Shown here piece by piece: positions 28,006 to 49,850 of a DNA stretch of 64,000 bases. The stretch lies in assembly GCF_000337735.1 (NCBI RefSeq), contig NZ_AOHX01000058.1, positions 5,699-69,698 on the forward strand, written 5' to 3'. The stretch is from Natronorubrum sulfidifaciens JCM 14089 (GTDB lineage Archaea > Halobacteriota > Halobacteria > Halobacteriales > Natrialbaceae). Below the pieces are notes generated by a model, which was not told the origin of the DNA, did no database searches, and was given only the letters and a program-made list of their open reading frames with translations. The position numbers were made by a program, and so were the translations under genes. Position 1 is the first letter of the stretch. Every line of letters starts with the position of its first letter.

Positions 28006-28712
28006 GTCTGCTCACCCGTCATCTGTGGTTCGTGACCCAACGGTCTCAACTTCGCTCTATCATCGCTTGTACCCTATATCACTTCCAGAACGTTGGGAAT
28101 CATCTGTGTTTTCCGAGTACATCTCTCGAAAAGTCCACTGATAAAGACATATTAGAAATTAGATAAAGTGCATTAATAGTAATTATATTGGGAAGTATAT
28201 GGCTGACTGGTAGTGTGGGTGTCCCGTGAGACAGTCGACAGACAGTCTACCAGATCCATTGTTATCTTTCACTTTACCAATATAGTCGGCAGTTATCAGC
28301 GTTAGTTGGATAAAAGGGGGCTAAAAGAGAGCTTGCAGTAGTATTACCACTAATCGACCGCTTTTCTCTATTTCTATAGACTCGACACAACGTGACTGAG
28401 ATGATACTGAAATCTCGAGAGAGCGTATACGAACCACGGTTTAGGCGGTATCTGATCGCGGCAGCGCTCCGGTCGACTGCCGGTCAATCATCAGGTGACC
28501 AATGGATAGACGATCCGCGTTGCCACTCGTTCGTTGTACACGCCGCCGTCTAAACTACCAGCCTACTTTAATGCTATCTAATCTGGCGAATAAGGATAAT
28601 ATCTCCACTCTGTACTGGAAGTAAATGCCCCTCGAGTATCGGTGAGAGACGCCATCGGTAGGTCGTGGCGGAGCAGATAGAGCTAAATGCTCGCTACACA
28701 CAGTGTGACGTG
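28006..28712. other. Long AT-rich divergent promoter region
   Basis: No supported gene lies in this 700-base gap between the divergent MFS and ABC-ATPase genes. It is AT-rich, especially 28120-28380. It holds a 7-base inverted repeat (CTGGTAG 28207-28213 with CTACCAG 28247-28253) and the TATA-like GATAATATC near 28590. That box would give the ABC transcript a leader of about 95 bases. A regulator could bind here, but no known operator is recognisable. Confidence 0.4.
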
Positions 28713-29840
28713 ATGACGACTAGCGCAATTTCGCTCGAGGCAGTGACTAAATCGTTTCGTGAGGAAACGGTACTTCGAGATATCGAACTCGAGATCGAGG
28801 ATGGGGAGTTCTGTGTCGTTCTCGGACCGAGTGGCTGTGGGAAGAGTACGCTCCTCAAGTGCATTGCCGGATTGATCGACTCGGATGACGGGACGATCTC
28901 ACTCGATGGTCGTGACACGGCTGAAATGTCGGTGCAGGACCGAAATCTCGGCTACGTGTTCCAGGAGTTCGAGGAGACGCTGTTCCCCCACAAAACCGTC
29001 GCCGAGAACATCGCGTTCGGGCTCGAGCACGGCGAACAGGAGCGATCCCCCGAAGAGATCGACGAGATAATCGATGACATGCTGTCGCTGTTGGCGATCG
29101 AGGAGACACGGGATGATCTTCCGAGCGCGCTCTCAGGTGGGCAACAACAGCGCGTAGAGCTTGCACGCCAGTTAAGCCGCGAGTGTCCGATCATGCTGTT
29201 CGACGATCCGCTTGCCGACCTCGACTACAAGTTACAAAAACGGATGGAACTCGAGATGCGGAGTCTCCATGCGGACCTCGAGAGTACGTTCCTCTACATT
29301 ACGCACAACCAGGATCAGGCGCTCAAACTCGCCGATAAACTGGTGGTGATGAACCATGGGATGATCGAACAGATCGGAACGCCGGAATCGGTGTATCACA
29401 ACCCACAAACGGCGTTCGTCTGTCGGTTCGTCGGTGACTCGAACGCGCTCGTTACAGAGGGAGTGCCGACCGATGTCGGCGACGGTGTCGTCGATGTCGA
29501 AACCGAGATCGGGCCGATCACGGCGACCACACAGAACGGAACCGAGAAGGAGACCGGTATCGTGATCGTTCGCCCCGAGGCCGTCTCGCTCGACACAGCC
29601 GACTGTGAGACGACGGTGACCGGCGTTCTCGAGGGACGGACGTACACCGGCGAAACGACCGAGTTTGCACTGTCGATCGACGGACTCGACCGTGAGTTCT
29701 ACGTTGTCGTCCCGAACGATCCAGACATTGGCTCGGTCGGCGAGACGATGGAGTTGGGGTGGAATATCGACGACGCCCTCTACTTTGAGAAACTCAGTGT
29801 AACCGATGCGGTTACCTCTAGCGACCTCCTTGGTGAGTGA
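28713..29840 (+). CDS. ABC importer ATPase A (Pot/Fbp-type, TOBE), non-canonical Walker B
   Basis: The 375-residue ATPase belongs to the spermidine/putrescine-iron-type importer family. Walker A is GPSGCGKST (38-46), the Q loop VFQEFEETLF, the signature LSGGQ (140-144) and the H loop YITHNQ. Walker B reads IMLFDDP, so the catalytic Glu is replaced by Asp165. A TOBE-like regulatory region fills the C-terminus (IVIVRPEAVSL). ATG 28713 is chosen because the family begins with MTTSAISLEAV; an upstream frame extension is not conserved. It is followed after two bases by a second, different ATPase, so the two probably form a heterodimer with two unlike ATP sites. Confidence 0.9.
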   Translation: MTTSAISLEAVTKSFREETVLRDIELEIEDGEFCVVLGPSGCGKSTLLKCIAGLIDSDDGTISLDGRDTAEMSVQDRNLGYVFQEFEETLFPHKTVAENIAFGLEHGEQERSPEEIDEIIDDMLSLLAIEETRDDLPSALSGGQQQRVELARQLSRECPIMLFDDPLADLDYKLQKRMELEMRSLHADLESTFLYITHNQDQALKLADKLVVMNHGMIEQIGTPESVYHNPQTAFVCRFVGDSNALVTEGVPTDVGDGVVDVETEIGPITATTQNGTEKETGIVIVRPEAVSLDTADCETTVTGVLEGRTYTGETTEFALSIDGLDREFYVVVPNDPDIGSVGETMELGWNIDDALYFEKLSVTDAVTSSDLLGE

Positions 29841-29842
29841 TA

Positions 29843-31042
29843 ATGTCTGACACAGAATACTCCGGGGCGGACACATCGGCAGCCGAACCGACACCCGACG
29901 TGACGGACGACGTCGCACTCGATGTCCGGGGACTGACGAAAATCTACCCCGACGGGACGCTCGCCGTCGATGACATCGATTTCAGCATCAACGACGGGGA
30001 TTTCTGCGTGCTGATCGGCCCCAGCGGCTGTGGGAAGTCGACGACGCTGCACTCGCTTGTCGGCAAAATTCCGGTGACTGAGGGCGAAGTACGACTCGGT
30101 GGCGTCGATATCACCGACGCACCCACGTACGAGCGCGATATCGGGCTCGTGTTTCAGGACTTTCAGCTGTTTCCACATCTGACCGTCGGGGAAAACATCG
30201 AGTACGGACTGCAACGCCTTCAGGTCGATGCGGACGAGCGAGCGGAGCGCGTCACCAACATCGTCGAAATGATGCGCCTCGAGTCGCTTGCCGACCGACA
30301 ACCAGAAGAGCTCTCCGCGGGGCAAAAACAGCGCGTCGCACTCGCTCGGAGTATGGTCCTCGAGCCGAAGTTGCTCTTGCTTGATGAACCGCTCGGGGAC
30401 ATGGATTACAAACTCCAGAAACACATGGAGCGGGAGCTGCTTCGGCTCCACCGCGAGCTCGATACGACGTTCGTCTACGTGACTCACGACCAGACACAGG
30501 CGATGCGGCTTGCTGACCAGATCGTCGTCATGAACGATGGGAAAGTCGAGCAATCCGACTCCGTCGAGCGTGTCTACAACGAGCCGGCGACGGCGTTCGT
30601 CTCGGCGTTCGTCGGCGACTCGAACACGTTTACGGGCGAACTGACCGATGTCAGCGAGGACGGCAGCTACGCCCACATCGAAACACCGCTTGGCACGTTT
30701 CTTGCGACGACGAAGAATCTTCGCTCCGATCCACCGTCGCTCGTCGGCGAGCAGATCCCGTTCTCGGTCCGGCCACAGTATCTCGAGGTCACTGACGAAC
30801 TCGACAACAGTGTCAGCTGCCGGGTTGACGACGTGATCCATCAACCCGGCTCGGGGACGCAGGTAATCCTCGAGGCGACGACGACTGACGGAACGCCACA
30901 CGAACTCCAACTGAAGTCCTTCGATCGCATCGAGCCATCGGACACCGTTTCAGTCGGCTGGAGTGCGGATCACGCCACTCTGCTCGAGCAGACGAGCGTC
31001 GTCGACGGAATCGACCTCGGGACGGACATCCTCGGCGAGTGA
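29843..31042 (+). CDS. ABC importer ATPase B (Pot/Fbp-type, TOBE), altered signature motif
   Basis: The 399-residue partner of the upstream ATPase has a 25-residue acidic N-terminal extension. Walker A is GPSGCGKST (59-67), Walker B LLLLDEP with catalytic Glu182, and H loop YVTHDQ. Its ABC signature is LSAGQ (157-161) instead of LSGGQ. Mixed with ATPase A, the canonical site would pair this Walker A/B with the A signature, and the other site would be degenerate. The C-terminal TOBE region includes QIPFSVRPQYLEV. The stop codon TGA at 31040-31042 shares its last base with a palindromic repeat. The binding protein and permeases of the same importer lie at 33.6-38.7 kb. Confidence 0.9.
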   Translation: MSDTEYSGADTSAAEPTPDVTDDVALDVRGLTKIYPDGTLAVDDIDFSINDGDFCVLIGPSGCGKSTTLHSLVGKIPVTEGEVRLGGVDITDAPTYERDIGLVFQDFQLFPHLTVGENIEYGLQRLQVDADERAERVTNIVEMMRLESLADRQPEELSAGQKQRVALARSMVLEPKLLLLDEPLGDMDYKLQKHMERELLRLHRELDTTFVYVTHDQTQAMRLADQIVVMNDGKVEQSDSVERVYNEPATAFVSAFVGDSNTFTGELTDVSEDGSYAHIETPLGTFLATTKNLRSDPPSLVGEQIPFSVRPQYLEVTDELDNSVSCRVDDVIHQPGSGTQVILEATTTDGTPHELQLKSFDRIEPSDTVSVGWSADHATLLEQTSVVDGIDLGTDILGE

Positions 31043-33575: not shown

Positions 33576-34904
33576 ATGCCAGACGGTATCAGTAGACGAA
33601 ACTTTGTGGCGTACGGTGGCGCAGCAGCGGGTGCAGCACTTGCAGGATGTGTCGGTGGCGATGATGGTCCGGCACGACCACTCGAGTGGATTGGGCCAGA
33701 CTGGGCGGTCAGTGACGAGCAGGCTGCGAAAATGGAGGAGATGTCGGGCGTCGAGGTGAACACGACGATCGCGACGATCGGTGATACGCAGGCACAACTC
33801 CTCGGCGGCGGGTCCGAAAACACGGACGTGTTCACTTCGGATACGACCGGATCTGGGGCACTTACTCGAGACAATCCGGTAACGATCCCGATGCCGGTCG
33901 ACGACCTAGAGAACTGGGATGAAGAGCAGATTTCCGATCTGTTCACTGATCCAGCCGAGCGGCTGAGCCATCTCGGAGAACAGGTCGAGACAGTCAACGA
34001 TGAGTTGTGGGTCGACGGCGACACGCGCGACGAGATTCTGTTCTCACCATACGCGTACAACTTCGACGCGATGGGGTACAACCCATCGTTCGTCGACGAC
34101 GTCTCCCTGTGGAGTACGCAGTTCGACGAACAGTACGAGGGAGAGGTCATCGTCGGCGAAACGGCGGCGATCACCATCCCACAGGCGATCATGCACTTGC
34201 TCGATAACGACATGATCGACGGCGACATCGGCCAGTTGAACAACCCGACGCAGGACCAACTCGATACGGCGATCGACTTCCTTATCGAGCAGAAAGACGC
34301 CGGCCAGTTCCGTTCGACGTGGGAAGCCTACGGCGAGTCCGTGACGCTAATGGCTGGCGAAGAGGCAGTCATCGGCGACATCTGGCAGCCGGCAGCGATG
34401 GACGTTCGTCGAGAAGGGACGCCATGTACCTACGCCACGATGAGCGAGGGCATTCAGGGCTACCGCTACTGGTACGGCGGGATGGCGACCCTCGAGGGCG
34501 CACGGGAGCGCCAAAACGTCGAGCAGGTCACGTTCCTGTACGATCAGGTCCACCTCGGCGCGTGGTTCCCCGGCTTCGTCCAAGGTCGTGGCTACTCGGT
34601 TCCACACTACGAAAACGAGGAACTCGTCCGTGATGGCTCGGACGAATCCGGCGAAGGAATGGGGCCGGAGTACTACGACTGGGCATACCGCGGCGAGGCG
34701 ACGTACGAGGAGATCGACGAACCGTCACTGTTCGATCCGCTCGATTACGACTGGTCGATGGAAGAAGGCTCTCCCGACTCGAACGGCGGCACCCGTGACA
34801 GCGGGCCGATCGAAGAACGGATCGACCGCATTGGCTTCTTCCAGATCTGGCCCAGTGAGGCAGACTACATGGTCTCACGTTGGGAGGACTTCCTGGCTGC
34901 CTAA
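33576..34904 (+). CDS. Tat-exported lipoprotein solute-binding protein (PotD-like)
   Basis: The 442-residue protein starts with a twin-arginine motif, SRRNFVAYGG, and a lipobox, LAGC, at Cys about residue 26. It is therefore exported folded and lipid-anchored outside the membrane. The mature body resembles periplasmic binding proteins of the spermidine/putrescine class (ARPLEWIGPDW, YAYNFDAMGYNPSFVDD, WQPAAMDVRREGTPCTYA). It should capture the substrate and deliver it to the two permeases at 34953 and 37874. Because the surrounding enzymes act on cyclic amides, the ligand may be a ureide or amide and not a polyamine; this is inference. The first permease follows after 48 bases. Confidence 0.9.
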   Translation: MPDGISRRNFVAYGGAAAGAALAGCVGGDDGPARPLEWIGPDWAVSDEQAAKMEEMSGVEVNTTIATIGDTQAQLLGGGSENTDVFTSDTTGSGALTRDNPVTIPMPVDDLENWDEEQISDLFTDPAERLSHLGEQVETVNDELWVDGDTRDEILFSPYAYNFDAMGYNPSFVDDVSLWSTQFDEQYEGEVIVGETAAITIPQAIMHLLDNDMIDGDIGQLNNPTQDQLDTAIDFLIEQKDAGQFRSTWEAYGESVTLMAGEEAVIGDIWQPAAMDVRREGTPCTYATMSEGIQGYRYWYGGMATLEGARERQNVEQVTFLYDQVHLGAWFPGFVQGRGYSVPHYENEELVRDGSDESGEGMGPEYYDWAYRGEATYEEIDEPSLFDPLDYDWSMEEGSPDSNGGTRDSGPIEERIDRIGFFQIWPSEADYMVSRWEDFLAA

Positions 34905-34952: not shown

Positions 34953-35861
34953 ATGAGTTCTGAATCAAAAACCGGCGGCTCGAGTCTGTTGGGGACTGAC
35001 AGAGATGATCTGATCAACGAAGTAACGGGGTTGATCGCACCAACAGTGCTCTGGTTTGCCGTCTTCTTACTGTTGCCGTTGCTCGTCATTTTCTACTACA
35101 GCTTCCTCACGTACCAGTCGTTCAACGTCATAAACGAGTTCACGCTCTCGGCGTGGGTCGATGGCGTGTTCGGCTCCGGTGCGGTTCGGGGTGCGTTCGT
35201 CCGAACGATCGGCGTCGGAATCATCGTGACCATAATCACGCTCGCGTTCGGCTACCCGCTCGCGTACTACCTGCGGTTTCACACCACGCCGATGGTTGGA
35301 CTCGTCTTGCTGTTGTTTCTGGTCATCCCGTTCTGGACGTCTGAGCTGATCCGGACGTTCGGCTGGTTTCCAATCTTGGGACGAAACGGGGTCGTCAACG
35401 GGCTGTTGATGACGCTTGGGATCACCAGTGGGCCGATCGGCTGGCTCCTGTTTTCCGGGTTCTCACAGGCAGTCGGCTATCTCCAGAACTACGTGGTGTT
35501 CATGGCAGCCCCGATCTACATCTCGCTGTCACAGATCGATGAAGGACTGCTCAACGCCTCCGAAACGCTGCGCGGAAACCCGGTGGAGACGTTCAAAAAC
35601 GTCACATGGCCGCTGAGCCTGCCCGGCGTCGCGATCGGCTGTATGTTCACGTTCGTGCTGACGATCGGGAACTTCACCGTGCCGTCGTTTCTCAGTGGCG
35701 GTGCCAACACGGTGCCGACGCTGATCTTCAGCCGCTACAGTCAGGGACTCAACTACCCATCGGCTGCGGCGCTCTCGATCACACTGCTCGTCGTCATCTT
35801 CGCGTTCGTCTTCCTGCTGTTCAGAGTCGTCGACATCACCGAGATCGCGAGCCAAGACTGA
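34953..35861 (+). CDS. ABC importer permease 1 (PotB-like)
   Basis: The 302-residue protein has six membrane helices. The cytoplasmic EAA loop that docks the ATPases is SQIDEGLLNASETLRGNPVETFKNVTWPLSLPGV. An N-terminal helix, LIAPTVLWFAVFLLLPLLVIFYY, starts the typical PotB layout, and FWTSELIRTFGWFPILG before helix 3 is also characteristic. It is co-transcribed with the binding protein. The partner permease is separated from it by the minus-strand chaperonin-like gene. Confidence 0.92.
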   Translation: MSSESKTGGSSLLGTDRDDLINEVTGLIAPTVLWFAVFLLLPLLVIFYYSFLTYQSFNVINEFTLSAWVDGVFGSGAVRGAFVRTIGVGIIVTIITLAFGYPLAYYLRFHTTPMVGLVLLLFLVIPFWTSELIRTFGWFPILGRNGVVNGLLMTLGITSGPIGWLLFSGFSQAVGYLQNYVVFMAAPIYISLSQIDEGLLNASETLRGNPVETFKNVTWPLSLPGVAIGCMFTFVLTIGNFTVPSFLSGGANTVPTLIFSRYSQGLNYPSAAALSITLLVVIFAFVFLLFRVVDITEIASQD

Positions 35862-35965: not shown

Positions 35966-37753
35966 TCACTGGTGCCAGATCGTATCGTCCCGCTCCTCGA
36001 GGTACTCCTGATGGCGTTCCGCGTGCTCGTCGTAAATCGCATCGCCCGGCTCCGTCGGTTCGTCGGTAAACGTCGCATCGATCGCATCGTCGACGCGAAG
36101 TACGAGCAACGCGACATCGACGGCGTGGCGGTAACACCGTCGTCGAACGCCAGTCGGATCGAGTACACCAGCATCCAGGACGTCGTCTATCTCTTTCGTG
36201 GGCAAGACGAGTCCCGGCGCAGTACCGTTCGTCGTATTCGTGGTCGCCTCTCGCAGGTTCGTCAGCGTCGTCAGCGGGTCCATCCCCGCGTTCCGGGCGA
36301 GCGTCGACACGAACCGCTCCGTCGCGTCGGCAAAGGCCTCGAAAGCGAGTTGCGCCCGTCCGTCCGCCTCGAGTGCGGCCGCACGGAGTTCGCGTGCGAC
36401 CTCGAGTTCCGTCGCCCCGCCGCCGGGAAGTACCCCTGCTGGGGCAGCCGTTTCGCCGGTCGCCGTTGCGACCGCGGCGACAGCTTTTCTGACCTCCGTC
36501 GCCGCCTGCTCGCCGAGTTGGCCGTGGACACCATGGAGGAGAAACGTCACCGACTCCGGGTCGGGACAGTCATCGAAGACGACCATGCGCCGGCGCTTTC
36601 GGCGGCCCTGTCGCTTATCGATGACGTGCTGTTCGACGAGGCCAGCGGAGCCGAGATCGGCCGGCGTTACATCAGTCGAATCGACGACGGGTGTTGCACC
36701 AGTTGCCCGTGCCAGCTGTGTGAGTTTGAGCCGGTTGACGCCACGGATGCCCACGATTCCGTGTTCGACGAGCAGTTCCTGGTAGGCGTCGTTGATTCCG
36801 GTTCTGGTTACGACGACATCGACACCAGCGTCAACGAGACCGGCGACGACCTGCTCGCGGCGGCGGACGAACACGTCGTCGAACGCCTCGATGTCGTCCG
36901 GCGAGTCGACGATAATCCGCTCGCCGTCTTGCTGGAAGTCAGGGTCTTGCAGCCCACCCGTTTTGCCGTCGTTCGCTTTGCCGCGTTTGAACCCACTGAG
37001 TACCAGCACGTTCGCGTCCTCGATCCGACGGGGCATCCGCTCGTCACAGATCTCGTTTCGGTCGAGGACGGTTCCGGAGACGAGCCGCGAGTCGTCGATC
37101 GATCCTGATCGAATCTGACGGACGGCAAGGGTCTCCTCGTCGGGCATTCCGACCTGCGCGGCCGCTTCGACGGCACCTGCTGCCCAGATCTCTCGCGCCC
37201 CACCGATGTCGTTGCCCGTCATCGCCGAGCGCGCGACCATTTCGGCAGCAGCAGTCGGATCGTCGAACTCCTCGAGTGGTTTCGAAAGCGACTGTAGCGT
37301 GCGTTCGACCGTCTCGAGGGCGGCACTATACCCCTCTTCGATAGTCGTCGGGTGCACGCCACGTTCGATCAGCCGCTCGCCCTCTTTCAACAGCGCCCCG
37401 AGCAGTACCACGGTGGTTCCGACCCCATCAGGGACGAGTTCGCCGACGACATCGGTCGTTCCCGGCCGTTCCGGCACGACGAGGCGGCGAATAATCGGCC
37501 CCATCGGGTGCTCGATCGGTAACTCCTCGAGGACCGTCGCACCGTCGCTGCTAACCGTATCGACTCGCGTTTCTGGCTCTCCCGGCTCTCGATCCTCGGT
37601 GGACGAGCGGCCCGTGATCAGCGTCTCGTGGGACAGCGGGCCGACGGAACTCTCGAGAACGCCGGTTACCGCTCGCGCAGCGACGATGTTTGCGTGTGGA
37701 AACTGTAACTCCCCACCAGTTTCGGTTCCGTCTTCCATGTGTAACACTGTCAT
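35966..37753 (-). CDS. Divergent thermosome-like (group II chaperonin, Cpn60/TCP-1) protein
   Basis: The product has about 595 residues from ATG 37753 (the open frame continues to 37858). Several group II chaperonin blocks are clear: SDGATVLEELPIEHP (69-83), GVLPGGGATELEVARELR (about 440-458), LARNAGMDPLTTLTNLR and DDVLDAGVLDPTGV. Two ATP-site motifs are degraded. GPKG reads GPLS (38-41) and GDGTT reads PDGVG (108-112), losing the threonines that contact phosphate. It also has an unusual N-terminus and an acidic C-terminal tail. It may bind but not turn over ATP, or work with the canonical thermosome encoded elsewhere. It lies between the two permease genes of the importer, on the opposite strand. 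Confidence 0.85.
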   Translation of the reverse strand: MTVLHMEDGTETGGELQFPHANIVAARAVTGVLESSVGPLSHETLITGRSSTEDREPGEPETRVDTVSSDGATVLEELPIEHPMGPIIRRLVVPERPGTTDVVGELVPDGVGTTVVLLGALLKEGERLIERGVHPTTIEEGYSAALETVERTLQSLSKPLEEFDDPTAAAEMVARSAMTGNDIGGAREIWAAGAVEAAAQVGMPDEETLAVRQIRSGSIDDSRLVSGTVLDRNEICDERMPRRIEDANVLVLSGFKRGKANDGKTGGLQDPDFQQDGERIIVDSPDDIEAFDDVFVRRREQVVAGLVDAGVDVVVTRTGINDAYQELLVEHGIVGIRGVNRLKLTQLARATGATPVVDSTDVTPADLGSAGLVEQHVIDKRQGRRKRRRMVVFDDCPDPESVTFLLHGVHGQLGEQAATEVRKAVAAVATATGETAAPAGVLPGGGATELEVARELRAAALEADGRAQLAFEAFADATERFVSTLARNAGMDPLTTLTNLREATTNTTNGTAPGLVLPTKEIDDVLDAGVLDPTGVRRRCYRHAVDVALLVLRVDDAIDATFTDEPTEPGDAIYDEHAERHQEYLEERDDTIWHQ

Positions 37754-37841
37754 TCCGTCGGGCAGCGGATAAAAACCTATCCACGAATAGCCGTGTTCTG
37801 TCGCCGATTCAAGTATGTTGACACGAGTCATGCGCAGTATC

Positions 37842-37849
37842 TTTATATC
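37842..37849 (+). promoter_or_regulatory. TATA box for permease 2
   Basis: TTTATATC is centred about 28 bases upstream of ATG 37874. It lies in the short divergent gap with the chaperonin-like gene, so permease 2 is transcribed from its own leaderless promoter. Confidence 0.65.
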
Positions 37850-37873
37850 ATATGCCACCAGTACTCAGGGTAG

Positions 37874-38722
37874 ATGGCGACAAAGCACTCTTCGGTTGAG
37901 ACGCAGGTGGAGCAATCTGCGTTAACACGGCTCGTACAGTGGTTCGATATGAAGCGGCTGTTGGCAGCGTATTTCATCCTGATTTCGCTGTACATCTACG
38001 CGCCGATGATCTCCCTGATCGTGTTTTCGTTCAACGCAGGCGGGATCTCGCCGCCGTATCAGGGGTTTACGCTGGCGTGGTACAGTGAGTTGCTCTCCAA
38101 TCGGGGGATTCTCACCTCCGTCATGCGGTCGATCCAGCTTGCACTCGTCGTAACGGTGATTACGACGATACTGGGTACTGCCGCAGCGCTTGCATACCGC
38201 TACGATTTCCGTGGCCGCAAACTGTTCTTGTATCTGATCGTGCTCGGGATCATCACTCCGGGAATCGCGTTCAGCGTCGGCTCAACGCTGCTTCTGAACG
38301 AGGTTCTTGGATTCTCCCGATCGATGTGGCTTGCGCTACCCGCCCACGTCGTCTGGACGCTCCCGTTTGCCGTCATCGTCTTGCTCGCCGGCTTCCCACC
38401 GAACCTCGCACAGAACGAAGAGGCAGCGAGAGTCATGGGTGCGGATCGAAAGACAACGTTCAGAGAGATCGTGTTGCCACAGATCGCGCCGACCGTTCTC
38501 GGGGCAGCTGTCTTCGCGTTTACGCTCTCGTACAACGAAGCCGAACGCGGACTGCTCCTCGTTGGCCGTGACCGAACCATGCCGATGGAAGTGTTCAGTA
38601 TCGCCTCTGCGGAGCGTGCAACGCCGGAGCTGTTCGCTCTCGGAAGCGTGACAACGGTGTTCTCGACGATCCTGCTGCTCGTCGCAGGCGGTCTCGTCGT
38701 CTACGGGTCCAGACAGTCCTGA
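37874..38722 (+). CDS. ABC importer permease 2 (PotC-like)
   Basis: The 282-residue protein has six membrane helices in PotC order. The first is AAYFILISLYIYAPMISLIVFSF, followed by GFTLAWYSELLSN, a typical PotC external segment. The EAA docking loop is NEEAARVMGADRKTTFREIVLPQIAPTVLG. It should pair with permease 1 to form the channel and with the two unlike ATPases inside. The gene is separated from permease 1 by the reverse-strand chaperonin-like gene, an uncommon arrangement for a Pot system. Confidence 0.92.
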   Translation: MATKHSSVETQVEQSALTRLVQWFDMKRLLAAYFILISLYIYAPMISLIVFSFNAGGISPPYQGFTLAWYSELLSNRGILTSVMRSIQLALVVTVITTILGTAAALAYRYDFRGRKLFLYLIVLGIITPGIAFSVGSTLLLNEVLGFSRSMWLALPAHVVWTLPFAVIVLLAGFPPNLAQNEEAARVMGADRKTTFREIVLPQIAPTVLGAAVFAFTLSYNEAERGLLLVGRDRTMPMEVFSIASAERATPELFALGSVTTVFSTILLLVAGGLVVYGSRQS

Positions 38723-38830: not shown

Positions 38831-39667
38831 ATGACGTCCAAAGTATGCCTTACGTACGACTTTGACGCGGTATCGACGTGGCTGTGGTCATACGACTCCT
38901 GGGATATGCCGACACGGCATTCTCGAGGCGTCTATGGCGCCAACGTCGGTGCTCCGCGCCTGCTCGATCTCCACGACAAACACGACATTCCCGCGACCTG
39001 GTTCATCCCCGGCCACACGATCGACAGCTTCCCGGAGATCAGCGCCGAGGTGTGGGACCGCGGCTACGACATCCAACACCACGGCTGGAGCCACACCGGA
39101 CCCGCAACGTACGACACCAAAGAAGACGAGATGGCAGACGTCGAACGGGCAATCGACTCGATCGTCGACCTCACCGGTCGCAAACCCACCGGCTACCGCT
39201 CGCCTGCGTGGGACTACTCGGCGAACACGCTCGACATCTTAGATGAAGTCGGCATCGAATGGGACTCGAGCAAGATGGCCTCGGATTTCGAACCCCACTG
39301 GCTCTATGGTAACTGGAGCGCACCCGAGGACGGCCCGTACGACCGCGGCGAACCGACGGATATCGTCGAACTCCCTGTCTCGTGGCAGCGCGACGACTGG
39401 CCAGCACTGACGTTTACGTGGGCGCGCCCACACCGCATGGGCTACGTGAGCGAGGATTCGCTCTTCCAGCGCTACTACGACCAGTTCGACTGGATGCACG
39501 AGAACGTCGACGACGGCGTCTTTATTCTGACGCTGCACCCACAGGTCATCGGACAGGCCCACCGCATCTCGCGACTCGAGGAACTGATCGAACACATGAA
39601 AAGCCACGACGATGTCGAGTTCGAAGAGATGGACACCGTCGCCACCGAATTCCGCGAGAATAACTGA
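38831..39667 (+). CDS. Polysaccharide-deacetylase-fold hydrolase (PuuE/cyclic-imide-hydrolase-like candidate)
   Basis: The 278-residue protein has the NodB fold motifs: the metal-binding Asp region TYDFDAVS, HHGWSHTGP with the HxxxH metal ligands, GYRSPAWDYS, and LTLHPQVIGQ near the C-terminus with the catalytic His. There is no signal peptide, so it is cytoplasmic. This argues against an outer-polysaccharide substrate. The same fold includes the metal-independent allantoinase PuuE and bacterial cyclic imide hydrolases, so in this amide-degrading neighbourhood a ring-opening role is plausible. I cannot distinguish these from sequence alone. Confidence 0.8.
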   Translation: MTSKVCLTYDFDAVSTWLWSYDSWDMPTRHSRGVYGANVGAPRLLDLHDKHDIPATWFIPGHTIDSFPEISAEVWDRGYDIQHHGWSHTGPATYDTKEDEMADVERAIDSIVDLTGRKPTGYRSPAWDYSANTLDILDEVGIEWDSSKMASDFEPHWLYGNWSAPEDGPYDRGEPTDIVELPVSWQRDDWPALTFTWARPHRMGYVSEDSLFQRYYDQFDWMHENVDDGVFILTLHPQVIGQAHRISRLEELIEHMKSHDDVEFEEMDTVATEFRENN

Positions 39668-45921: not shown

Positions 45922-48021
45922 ATGGTTAGCAAGAGTACAGGCAGCAGTAGTGAGACCCGTGTCGGCGTCGACGTCGGTGGTACGAACACCGACGTTATTC
46001 TCGTCACCGAGGACGACGAGTTCACGTTCAAAACCCCTTCAACGGCGGACCCATCGCAGTCGACGCTCACCGGAATCGTCGAAGTCTGTCAACTCGCCGG
46101 AGTCGAACCGGCCGACGTCGATCAGATCCTTCATGGCACGACTGTCGCGACGAACGCCTTGATCGAACACGAAGGGGCAAAAACGGGTCTGCTCACGACA
46201 GACGGGTTCCGTGACGTGTTGCATATCGGCCGGCATCGGAAACCCCACAGTTTCTCTCTCCAGCAGACGATCTCCTGGCAGGAACAGCCAATCGTCAAAC
46301 GACGACACCGCAAAGAGGTCACCGAGCGAATCTACCCGCCCGGCGACGTTATCACCCCGTTGGACGAAGACGCCGTACTGAAACAAACCGGCGACCTCGT
46401 CGCCGACGGCGTCGAATCGATCGCCGTCTGCTATCTCCACTCCTATCTCAATCGCGAGCACGAAGACCGGACGAAAGAACTCATTCACGAGCAGTTCCCC
46501 GACGTTAGCGTCTCGACCTCGAGCGAGGTCGTCGCCCAGTTCCGGGAGTTCGAGCGGTTCACGACGACGGCGGTCAACGCCCGCCTCGAGCCCGTGATGT
46601 CGACGTATCTGACGCGGCTCAGCGATGGTCTCGCCGACGAGGGCTTCGACGCCGAAGTGCTCATCATGCAGTCCAACGGCGGAATGGCGAGCGTGCAAAA
46701 CGTCGCCGAACGGCCGGTCACGACGCTCGTTTCCGGGCCAGCCGCGGGCGTGCTTTCGGCGGCGTTCGAGGGCGAACACGTCGACGAGCCGAACCTCGTC
46801 ATGCTGGACATGGGTGGCACCAGTGCGGATATCTCTGTAGTCCCCGGGCGCGTCCTCGAGCGCGATCCTCGAGACAGCACCGTCGGCGGCTATCCGACGA
46901 TCACGCCCATGCTCGACATCGAAACCATTGGCGCGGGTGGCGGCTCGATCGCCTGGTTCGACGACGCGATGGGCTTCAACGTCGGCCCGAAAAGCGCTGG
47001 CGCGAATCCGGGGCCGGCCTGTTATGCTCGCGGCAACGACCAGCCGACGACGACCGACGCACAGGTCGTCCTCGGCCGAATCGACCCCGACAGCTTCCTC
47101 GGCGGCGACCTCGACCTCGAGCCGGAGCGCTCCCGGGAGGCGTTACAGACGCAGTTGTGTGCTCGCACCGATCAGGCACAGTTCGAGACGCCGGAACAGG
47201 CCGCGCTTGCGACACTCGAGGTCGCGAACACGAACATGTACCGGGCGATTCGCGAACAGACCGTCCAGCGGGGCTACGACCCACGTGAGTACACGATGGT
47301 CGCTTTTGGCGGTGCCGGGCCGATGCACGGCGCGAGCATTGCCGAGAAACTCGAGGTCTCGACGGTGCTGGTGCCGCCGTCACCGGGGATCGCCTCGGCT
47401 CGCGGACTCTTGACGGGGAACGTGAAATACGACTACCAGCAGACGATCAGCAGCCCGCTCGAGGAAGTCGACGGCGAATTTATCGAAGATGCATTCGAGC
47501 GACTCGAAGCTCGTGGCCGCGAGCAACTCGAGCGCGACGAGATCGACCCCTCGCGCTGGGAGTTCAGATCGTCGGTCGACTGCCTATACGACGGGCAGGG
47601 CTACGAGTTGAACATCGACTTCGACGGAACCGACGGTGACTGGCACGCCAGACTCCGCGAACGCTTCGAGGAGCGACATGAGGCCGAGTACGGTCACTAC
47701 TTCGAAGCCGACCCGGTCGAACTGCTCAACGTCCGCGTGACCGCAATCGGCGATGTCGAGTCGTACGCGCCACCAGAGATTGCAGCCGACGGCGCGCTCG
47801 AGGCGGCCAAAACGACTGAGTCGACGGTCGTCTTCGGCACCCCGGATGCCCCCGAGAAACTAACTGTTCCACGATACGAGCGCGAAAAACTGACAGCCGG
47901 CACCGAGATCGATGGGCCAGCGATCGTCGACGAGTTCGACAGCACGGTCGTCGTCAACCCTAACTGGACGGCGACGATCGAAACGAACGGCTCGATCATA
48001 CTGACGACGGAGGAACGATGA
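45922..48021 (+). CDS. hyuA: Hydantoinase/oxoprolinase A subunit (HyuA), pair 1
   Basis: The 699-residue HyuA-type subunit is an ASKHA-fold ATPase of the 5-oxoprolinase/N-methylhydantoinase/acetone-carboxylase family. The phosphate-1 motif GVDVGGTNTDVILV begins near residue 14. VMLDMGGTSADIS (about 292) is the second ATP motif, and GGAGPMHGASIAEKL is the C-domain signature. With HyuB it would use ATP to open a lactam or hydantoin ring, although some relatives carboxylate ketones. ATG 45922 fits the promoter spacing; an upstream in-frame TTG is weaker. HyuB follows with an ATGA overlap. Confidence 0.92.
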   Translation: MVSKSTGSSSETRVGVDVGGTNTDVILVTEDDEFTFKTPSTADPSQSTLTGIVEVCQLAGVEPADVDQILHGTTVATNALIEHEGAKTGLLTTDGFRDVLHIGRHRKPHSFSLQQTISWQEQPIVKRRHRKEVTERIYPPGDVITPLDEDAVLKQTGDLVADGVESIAVCYLHSYLNREHEDRTKELIHEQFPDVSVSTSSEVVAQFREFERFTTTAVNARLEPVMSTYLTRLSDGLADEGFDAEVLIMQSNGGMASVQNVAERPVTTLVSGPAAGVLSAAFEGEHVDEPNLVMLDMGGTSADISVVPGRVLERDPRDSTVGGYPTITPMLDIETIGAGGGSIAWFDDAMGFNVGPKSAGANPGPACYARGNDQPTTTDAQVVLGRIDPDSFLGGDLDLEPERSREALQTQLCARTDQAQFETPEQAALATLEVANTNMYRAIREQTVQRGYDPREYTMVAFGGAGPMHGASIAEKLEVSTVLVPPSPGIASARGLLTGNVKYDYQQTISSPLEEVDGEFIEDAFERLEARGREQLERDEIDPSRWEFRSSVDCLYDGQGYELNIDFDGTDGDWHARLRERFEERHEAEYGHYFEADPVELLNVRVTAIGDVESYAPPEIAADGALEAAKTTESTVVFGTPDAPEKLTVPRYEREKLTAGTEIDGPAIVDEFDSTVVVNPNWTATIETNGSIILTTEER

Positions 48022-49850
48022 CGACACATCCAGACCACACGGACCAGACGGCACCGGACGACGAACACGACGACACGACGGCGGCGGACGTTCTCCGCGA
48101 ACGTGATATCGATCCGGTGACGATGCAGGTCATCGGCGGCGAACTCGATACGATCGCCCAAGAGATGGGGTACAAACTCATTCGCTCGTCGTACTCCTCG
48201 ATTATCCGCGAGAGCGAGGACATGGGGGCGGGGATCTTCACGACCGACTGTCGCGAACTCTGTGAGAGCGACTCGACGCCGATGCACGTCGGCTCGCTGA
48301 TCGGCTACCTCGACGGCATGTACAAGACGTTCGAGGAACGCGGCGTCGACCGCGAGGAGATCATCAACGAAGGCGACGTCTTCATCCACAACCACCCTCA
48401 CTACGGCGCAAGCCACTCGCCGGACATCGCCGTCGCCGTCCCCATCTTCTACGAGGGCGAACACATCGCCTGGGCGGCGAACACGGCCCACCACCTCGAC
48501 ATCGGCTCGGCAACGCCCGGCCTCGCCATCGACCTCGAGGACATGTACGCGGAAGGGAGCCTGTTCCGGGCGACGAAAGTCTACGATCAGGGCGAACGAG
48601 TCGACGGCATCTGGGACTTCATTGAGGACAACGTCCGGACGCCACGGGAGGTTATCGGCGACCTGCAGGCTCAGATTTCCTCGTGTCACGTCGGCGAGGA
48701 GCGGTATCTCGACCTCGTCGAAAAGTACGGACTCGAGGAGATCCAGCAGGCCGGCGAGGCGCTGATGGAGTACGCCGAAGCGCTCCTGCGCAACGAGATC
48801 CGGACGATCCCCGACGGGACGTACTACGCCGAGGATTATCTCGACGACGACGGGCGCAACCGCGACCAGCGCCTGAAGATCGCCGCGGAGGTGACCGTCG
48901 ACGGCAGCGACATCACCGTCGACATGAGCAAATCGGCCGATCAGACGCCGACGGGCTACAACATTCCGTTCCACGGCTCGACCGACGTCTGTATCTACTT
49001 CACAATCCGGTCGCTGCTGATGGACACTTTCGTTCGCGATGAGTATCTGCCACAGAACTCCGGGACGTTCGCCCCCGTCCATCCGAAAGCCCGGCCCGGC
49101 TGTATGTTCAACCCGACGCCGCCGACGTCGGCGTTCGCCCGCATCAATCAGGTCGACAAGATGAGCGACCTCATCATCAAAGCGCTCGCGGATGCGATCC
49201 CCGAGAAGGTCTGTGCGGGCACCTGCGGACAGGTGTACTTCGTGAGCTACGGCGGGACGAACGACGAGGGTGAGTACTGGGTCTACCTCGAGGTCAACGA
49301 AGGCTCCTACGGTGGTCGGCCCGAAGCCGACGGCCTCGACGCGGTCGACGCGCTCGTCCACAACACGAAGAATCGGCCCGTCGAGGACATCGAACTCTCC
49401 CACCCGATGCGAGTCGAACGGTACGGGCTCCGGGAGGACGGCCACGGTGCCGGGCGGACTCGAGGCGGCCACGGGATCGTCCGCGAGTCGCAGTTCCTCA
49501 CGGACGCCGTGATGACGATGGAAGGCGACGGGAACACGTACCGCCCACACGGCCTCTTCGGCGGCGGCGAGGGTACTCACGGCGACCTGAAGCACATCAA
49601 AGCCGACGGCGAGGTGCTTGATCTTCACTCGAAGGAGTCCGGCTACAAGTTCGAAGCCAACGACCGCGTGCTCATCAAGACGGCAAGCGGCGGCGGCTAC
49701 GGTGACCCACACGAGCGGCCAGCCGACACGGTCTACGAGGACTATCTCGACGGGCTGGTTTCGGAGACCGACGCCCGCGAGGAGTACGGCGTCGTCATCG
49801 AAGACGGGACGCTCGATACGGCGGCGACGGACGAACTGCGAAACGAGTAG
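48018..49850 (+). CDS. hyuB: Hydantoinase/oxoprolinase B subunit (HyuB), pair 1
   Basis: The 610-residue HyuB-type catalytic subunit follows its HyuA partner by a 4-base overlap. After a His/Asp-rich N-terminal tail, the family core starts DPVTMQVIGGELDTIAQEMGY. The metal/active-site segment is GDVFIHNHPHYGASHSPDIAV, followed by AANTAHHLDIGSATPG. The glycine-rich end TASGGGYGDPHERP is typical. The NHPHYGAS form differs from the commoner NDPY.G.TH seen in the second HyuB of this window, so the two pairs may have different substrates. Confidence 0.92.
   Translation: MTTHPDHTDQTAPDDEHDDTTAADVLRERDIDPVTMQVIGGELDTIAQEMGYKLIRSSYSSIIRESEDMGAGIFTTDCRELCESDSTPMHVGSLIGYLDGMYKTFEERGVDREEIINEGDVFIHNHPHYGASHSPDIAVAVPIFYEGEHIAWAANTAHHLDIGSATPGLAIDLEDMYAEGSLFRATKVYDQGERVDGIWDFIEDNVRTPREVIGDLQAQISSCHVGEERYLDLVEKYGLEEIQQAGEALMEYAEALLRNEIRTIPDGTYYAEDYLDDDGRNRDQRLKIAAEVTVDGSDITVDMSKSADQTPTGYNIPFHGSTDVCIYFTIRSLLMDTFVRDEYLPQNSGTFAPVHPKARPGCMFNPTPPTSAFARINQVDKMSDLIIKALADAIPEKVCAGTCGQVYFVSYGGTNDEGEYWVYLEVNEGSYGGRPEADGLDAVDALVHNTKNRPVEDIELSHPMRVERYGLREDGHGAGRTRGGHGIVRESQFLTDAVMTMEGDGNTYRPHGLFGGGEGTHGDLKHIKADGEVLDLHSKESGYKFEANDRVLIKTASGGGYGDPHERPADTVYEDYLDGLVSETDAREEYGVVIEDGTLDTAATDELRNE

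Follow-up and report, generated by a model that had tools for sequence, protein, structure and literature searches.

The question raised by this locus is why a gene for a chaperonin-like protein should lie, on the opposite strand, between the two permease genes of an ABC importer, and what such a protein may do there. The window, the whole stretch of 64,000 nucleotides of Natronorubrum sulfidifaciens JCM 14089 DNA that was analysed, contains a spermidine/putrescine (Pot-type) ABC importer whose substrate-binding protein (SBP) and both ATPases are encoded upstream of the permeases. Around it extends a catabolic island of the hydantoin type, with hydantoinase/oxoprolinase pairs, an asparaginase, a PuuE-like deacetylase, an aspartate/glutamate racemase-like gene and other hydrolases. 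The chaperonin-like family is here termed F1, and the genes referred to below are as follows.

28665–29840, + strand: importer ATPase 1
29837–31042, + strand: importer ATPase 2 (profile match)
33576–34904, + strand: SBP of the importer (profile match), with a Tat-type lipoprotein leader, RRNF...AGC
34953–35861, + strand: permease B, PotB-like (profile match)
35966–37753, − strand: chaperonin-like gene, family F1; open frame of 595 amino acids, or 590 from the likely start at 37738
37874–38722, + strand: permease C, PotC-like (profile match)
38831–39667, + strand: polysaccharide deacetylase/PuuE-like hydrolase, a variable island partner
45922–49850, + strand: HyuA1 and HyuB1, a hydantoinase/oxoprolinase pair, variable island partners

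This arrangement, with F1 splitting permeases B and C from the opposite strand, agrees with what had been described in an earlier sequence-only reading of the window. Annotation of the N. bangense orthologue places its start at the sixth codon, equivalent to window position 37738, and the F1 protein is therefore more likely to contain 590 than 595 residues. Inspection of positions 37738–37880 by eye shows two TATA-like stretches, each some 30 bases ahead of a gene: tttttatcc precedes the likely chaperonin start and ctttatatc precedes permease C, both at the spacing seen for leaderless haloarchaeal transcripts.

The match of the F1 protein to the Pfam Cpn60_TCP1 profile (PF00118) scores 298.6 bits against a cut-off of 34.3 and covers profile positions 26–488 of 490; with an E value of 1.1e-88 it is not due to chance. 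The chaperonin blocks that the sequence-only reading had picked out as kept (SDGATVL, PGGGATE, ARNAGMDP and DAGVLDP) are all present in the 595-residue frame, and a profile search detected no DNA-binding or other additional domain. The protein nevertheless falls below the cut-off of every NCBIfam thermosome model (303 against 450, 292.4 against 671.1 and 288.8 against 400 bits). The host genome encodes three ordinary thermosome genes, with F1 as a fourth and weaker match. By fold and sequence F1 is a member of the group II chaperonin superfamily which fails the tests for a functional thermosome subunit.

An AlphaFold2 model built from 14 sequences (mean pLDDT 71.3, pTM 0.72) predicts the full equatorial, intermediate and apical domain fold. 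The model is confident across most of residues 112–510 and weak in residues 36–111 and in the tail, with pLDDT below 50 at 36–57, 59–82 and 91–111. In the apical region, where thermosomes bear the helical protrusion that serves as a built-in lid, a long helix (285–309) is predicted, but residues 257–261 and 274–279 have pLDDT below 50. The nearest solved structures found by Foldseek are archaeal chaperonins (best E 7.4e-32), and structural superposition (VIA) gives a Z of 32.5 over 503 aligned residues with an rmsd of 4.1. In a tree of haloarchaeal chaperonins F1 forms a single clade of its own, with support of 100 and a long stem. This tree was a quick one with long branches; it is used solely for the unity of F1 and for the separation of F1 from a second clade described below, not for the placement of F1 or for the branching order among the remaining accessory clades.

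The residues of the ATP site were compared across 73 aligned haloarchaeal chaperonins, made up of 26 F1 members, 19 other accessory proteins and 28 canonical subunits. The following features were located in the window gene, all on the − strand.

37631–37642: GPLS replacing GPKG; GPxS or GPTP in 26/26 F1 members
37565–37600: about 12 extra, family-specific residues in the segment aligning with the canonical stem-loop hairpin
37454–37477: insert of 8 residues directly before the P-loop, here VPERPGTT
37418–37432: PDGVG replacing GDGTT, with the Asp and second Gly kept and the Thr lost; xDG[V/I]x in 26/26
37208–37219: TGND replacing TGKG, the Lys becoming Asn; GND in 26/26
36485–36487: Lys423 where canonical subunits have the catalytic Asp; Lys in 24/26 F1 members and Gln in 2/26
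36413–36427: PGGGA, kept
35969–36070: conserved C-terminal tail PGDAIYDE..AE.H..YLE..TIW, with no GGM tail

Two of these replacements, GPKG to GPLS and GDGTT to PDGVG, had been noticed from the sequence alone and are confirmed. To them are added the Lys423 substitution of the catalytic Asp, the loss of the TGK lysine, and the inserts at the P-loop and in the stem-loop segment. In thermosomes the TGK lysine senses the gamma phosphate. The alterations are a property of the family, the GPKG, GDGTT and TGK motifs being changed in all 26 members. The catalytic Asp, present in 28/28 canonical sequences, is found in 0/26 F1 members. The column occupied by Lys423 corresponds to Asp at residue 390 of T. 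acidophilum thermosome alpha, as counted from the aligned row, and the helix that bears it is free of gaps in 26/26 F1 members. A smaller alignment shifts the window residues under this column from RKAVA to AAVAT, still with no Asp. An archaeal chaperonin in which the catalytic Asp is mutated to Ala (D386A) is reported to bind ATP without hydrolysing it and to be a poor complement for GroEL loss (PMC5019054). Judged from the aligned residues, every F1 member examined has lost those that hydrolyse ATP and sense its phosphate, and at the sequence level there is strong support for the earlier suggestion of a non-cycling chaperonin fold. As Asp70 and Asp109 are kept, together with PGGGA in most members, F1 may still bind nucleotide.

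The pocket of F1 is altered and yet conserved (with invariant Asn181-Asp182 and Arg422, and with the family insert) and could hold another ligand. On this basis the chaperonin fold might have been turned into a sensor, for nucleotides or some other ligand, through which the importer or its expression is controlled, and F1 occupies a position where regulators often sit. This is quite improbable, given that the profile search revealed no DNA-binding or other extra domain and that several such islands possess IclR or Lrp genes of their own.

The tail, which had been called unusual, proves to be a conserved family-specific sequence, and in most members it ends near a Trp where a GGM tail would be expected in canonical subunits. 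In thermosomes the stem-loop hairpin makes intra-ring contacts and the C-terminal tail region also lies at ring contacts. These two regions bear on the main rival explanation, in which an inactive F1 subunit enters ordinary thermosome rings and alters their client range or cycle, the importer protein being the client. Hetero-oligomeric rings are formed by CCT and by many thermosomes, the same genome supplies three canonical thermosome genes, and the whole three-domain fold appears from the model to be retained. Against such a mixed ring, the segment aligned with the stem-loop is extended and the C-terminal tail is replaced, both at ring contacts, a point tempered by the low model confidence there. 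We regard a mixed ring as unlikely, though it is to be taken seriously. The altered segment at the putative ring interface, together with the new tail, suggests instead that F1 may act as an adaptor rather than as part of a standard 16-mer.

F1 was found in 19 of 391 Halobacteria genomes, spread over 9 of 86 genera, in 9 of 125 genomes of the family and in 7 of 10 Natronorubrum genomes, where identity is 72–100 percent. A draw of 196 genomes from the phylum, which held no other known carrier, gave a match only in the genome of the window itself. Carriers include species of Natronorubrum, Natrinema, Halobium, Halarchaeum, Halorientalis, Halobellus, Halorarius, Haladaptatus and Halorussus, as well as a Natronomonas MAG and Haloarcula litorea, and eight plasmid records contain the gene. 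The reading frame is uninterrupted in 19 of the 20 F1 loci read in detail. Across eight pairs of F1 genes dN/dS is 0.08–0.18, from which it is concluded that the lineage is under purifying selection. Stop codons or frameshifts in close relatives had been named as the mark of a decaying pseudogene; a single copy of the 20 (L068:8914–10613, genome G364) is frameshifted, near residue 192, and a decaying pseudogene is ruled out by the open frames and the dN/dS values. A relative of G364 from the same genus (G386, locus L063) has an intact F1 gene.

The importer SBP was detected in 19 of the 391 genomes, exactly those with F1, in searches that scored the best few candidates per genome and so could miss paralogues or, in principle, a best match. 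Both genes are on one contig in 19/19, separated by about 1 kb in 13 genomes and by 16–19 kb in 6. As they share an island, a chance figure for the identity of the two sets of 19 would give no fair probability, and none is relied on here. The weakest of the 19 SBP matches has an E value of 3.5e-173, and a search of six genomes at 1e-5 for other relatives returned a sole extra match of 24.9 bits, from which the SBP is seen to be a sharply defined family. F1 and the SBP also occur together in seven loci beyond the 391-genome sample (L075, L078, L080, L081, L083, L084 and L086), and within the genus in L051 and L053 (genomes G002 and G009). In the genomes searched F1 is found only together with this importer, and the lack of linkage that would have spoken against the sequence-only reading is not what is observed. 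Apart from the importer, the gene content around F1 is variable.

At E <= 1e-200, 16 of the 391 genomes contain HyuB, namely 15 of the 19 with F1 and one without it, and in one of the 15 it lies on a different contig from F1. Its absence elsewhere is that of the orthologue only, since L055 contains a more distant HyuAB pair (44–46 percent). The earlier reading had left the client open between the island's enzymes and the importer; the importer is favoured by the SBP in 19/19 genomes, and the enzymes are disfavoured by HyuB in 15/19. It is improbable that F1 serves the island's catabolic enzymes, foremost HyuA/HyuB. F1 is closer to HyuB (2.5 kb) than to the SBP in 6/19 genomes, in four Halobellus-type loci it lies 5 kb from HyuB with HyuA adjoining it, and the bacterial chaperonin-like protein MimG is required for a monooxygenase; the orthologous HyuB is however missing from 4/19, lies on a different contig in one and occurs once without F1, which weakens HyuAB as the sole client.

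The reading that we favour, at a little under an even chance, is that F1 works without an ATP cycle as a chaperonin-like factor dedicated to the adjoining ABC importer. The apical domain of F1 would bind one of the importer's components, in the most probable case the SBP before Tat export, or else the ATPase pair; the permeases are also possible clients. Tat substrates fold before export, and the Tat-type leader makes the SBP an attractive client. F1 would then either hold the bound component or pass it to the ordinary thermosome, a handover modelled by analogy on that of BBS6/BBS12 with CCT for the BBSome. The importer role is supported by the occurrence of F1 and the SBP in the same genomes while other island genes come and go. 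It is opposed by the proximity of F1 to HyuB in the six genomes mentioned, and by the presence in the same genomes of many other importers that presumably work without a chaperonin-like partner. Joint inheritance of the island could also keep F1 beside the importer without direct contact, an objection that is weakened by the loss of other island genes.

In its strongest form this objection makes F1 a bystander, carried by a mobile island through linkage alone and with no function tied to the importer. The patchy distribution, the plasmid location in several species and the frameshifted copy in L068 would fit such a history. It is nonetheless very improbable in view of the purifying selection on F1, the lack of any importer SBP without F1 in the 391 genomes, and an independent second case.

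This second case is sugC, an unrelated chaperonin-like clade of Natrialbaceae-type genomes, which forms a separate long branch in the chaperonin tree, apart from F1. The gene lies antisense inside the locus of a sugar-type ABC importer in two Natronorubrum genomes (L092:9975–11615 and L091:9013–10653, both on the − strand). Matches of more than 690 bits were obtained in 9 of 125 family genomes; a tenth match (genome G118) reaches 239 bits and has all canonical motifs. The SBP adjoining sugC is found in exactly those 9 of 125 genomes, at 0.5–4.4 kb, which is counted as a replicate of the pairing of F1 with its importer; of the nine SBP copies, one (G098) includes a stop. In sugC the catalytic Asp is lost in 8/9 and the TGK lysine in 9/9. 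In one genome (G007) sugC and F1 are about 19 kb apart on one contig.

Other accessory copies are more diverse. Non-F1 matches occur in 24 plasmid records (H9–H32), and among the 13 whose neighbourhoods were read the chaperonin-like gene adjoins, or is one gene away from, ABC importer genes in five (L088, L089, L094, L100 and L102) and formamidase genes in another five (L087, L095, L097, L098 and L099), with neither nearby in the remaining three (L093, L096 and L101). Many of these accessory copies keep the catalytic Asp, so loss of the ATPase is no general feature of the group. The formamidase-linked genes of haloarchaeal plasmids (L087:9962–11578, L095:5917–7599, L097:5917–7632, L098:5923–7620 and L099:5923–7626) form a clade with support of 100, in which the catalytic Asp is kept in 4/5 and an AmiS/UreI transporter gene is present in 4/5 loci. 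In L088:9965–13312 and L089:9962–13221 two chaperonin-like genes converge on each other next to a sugar ABC importer, and the motifs of both partners are altered. A very divergent gene (L090:9811–11394, − strand; branch length 2.43), in which the Asp, TGK and GDGTT positions are all altered, has neighbours that look like CoA-ligase and thiolase genes.

F1 resembles thermosomes (the NCBIfam alpha/beta models, Mm-cpn and T. acidophilum) in its full three-domain fold, its PGGGA motif and two pocket Asp residues, and is 26–36 percent identical to archaeal and ancestral solved chains. It differs in scoring below every NCBIfam thermosome cut-off, in lacking the catalytic Asp, the TGK Lys and the GDGTT Thr, in its inserts and new tail, and in a patchy distribution where the thermosome is universal. 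sugC is like F1 in being chaperonin-like, tied one-to-one to an ABC importer's SBP and mostly without the catalytic Asp, whereas it keeps a GDGTT-type P-loop, accompanies a sugar-type importer and branches separately. MimG-type proteins are chaperonin relatives encoded with one client system, in bacterial monooxygenase operons, much as F1 may be encoded with its importer; MimG is however a Group I relative with an enzyme client in bacteria, and F1 a group II protein of archaea. The closest working parallel is with BBS6 (MKKS), BBS10 and BBS12, described as fast-evolving chaperonin paralogues with insertions at monomer contacts and an ATP motif that is changed in BBS6 and most of all in BBS12, which act as adaptors that stabilize one client and bring it to CCT (PMC5534436). 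F1 shares with them an altered ATP motif and, by analogy, would share a tie to the assembly of one complex. The BBS proteins are eukaryotic, derived from CCT8 and have the BBSome as client, whereas F1 is a separate archaeal family with a putative client.

Taken together with sugC, F1 suggests a wider possibility, to which we give less than even weight: that haloarchaea evolved, more than once, chaperonin-like proteins lacking ATPase and dedicated to importers, an archaeal counterpart of the BBS proteins. Each would be the partner of a single ABC importer, which would need it for assembly or for the Tat-dependent export of its SBP. Text searches of an open-access collection, in which subscription journals are mostly lacking, found no description of chaperonin relatives paired with archaeal importers. 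A further warning to be drawn is that some haloarchaeal plasmid genes labelled TCP-1/cpn60 or thermosome subunit are something else. Archaeal chaperonins are usually described as ATP-driven housekeeping machines. If the proposal is true, archaea would, like eukaryotes, have made dedicated chaperonin-like assembly factors, and F1 would offer a simple, deletable system for what the chaperonin fold does without its cycle.
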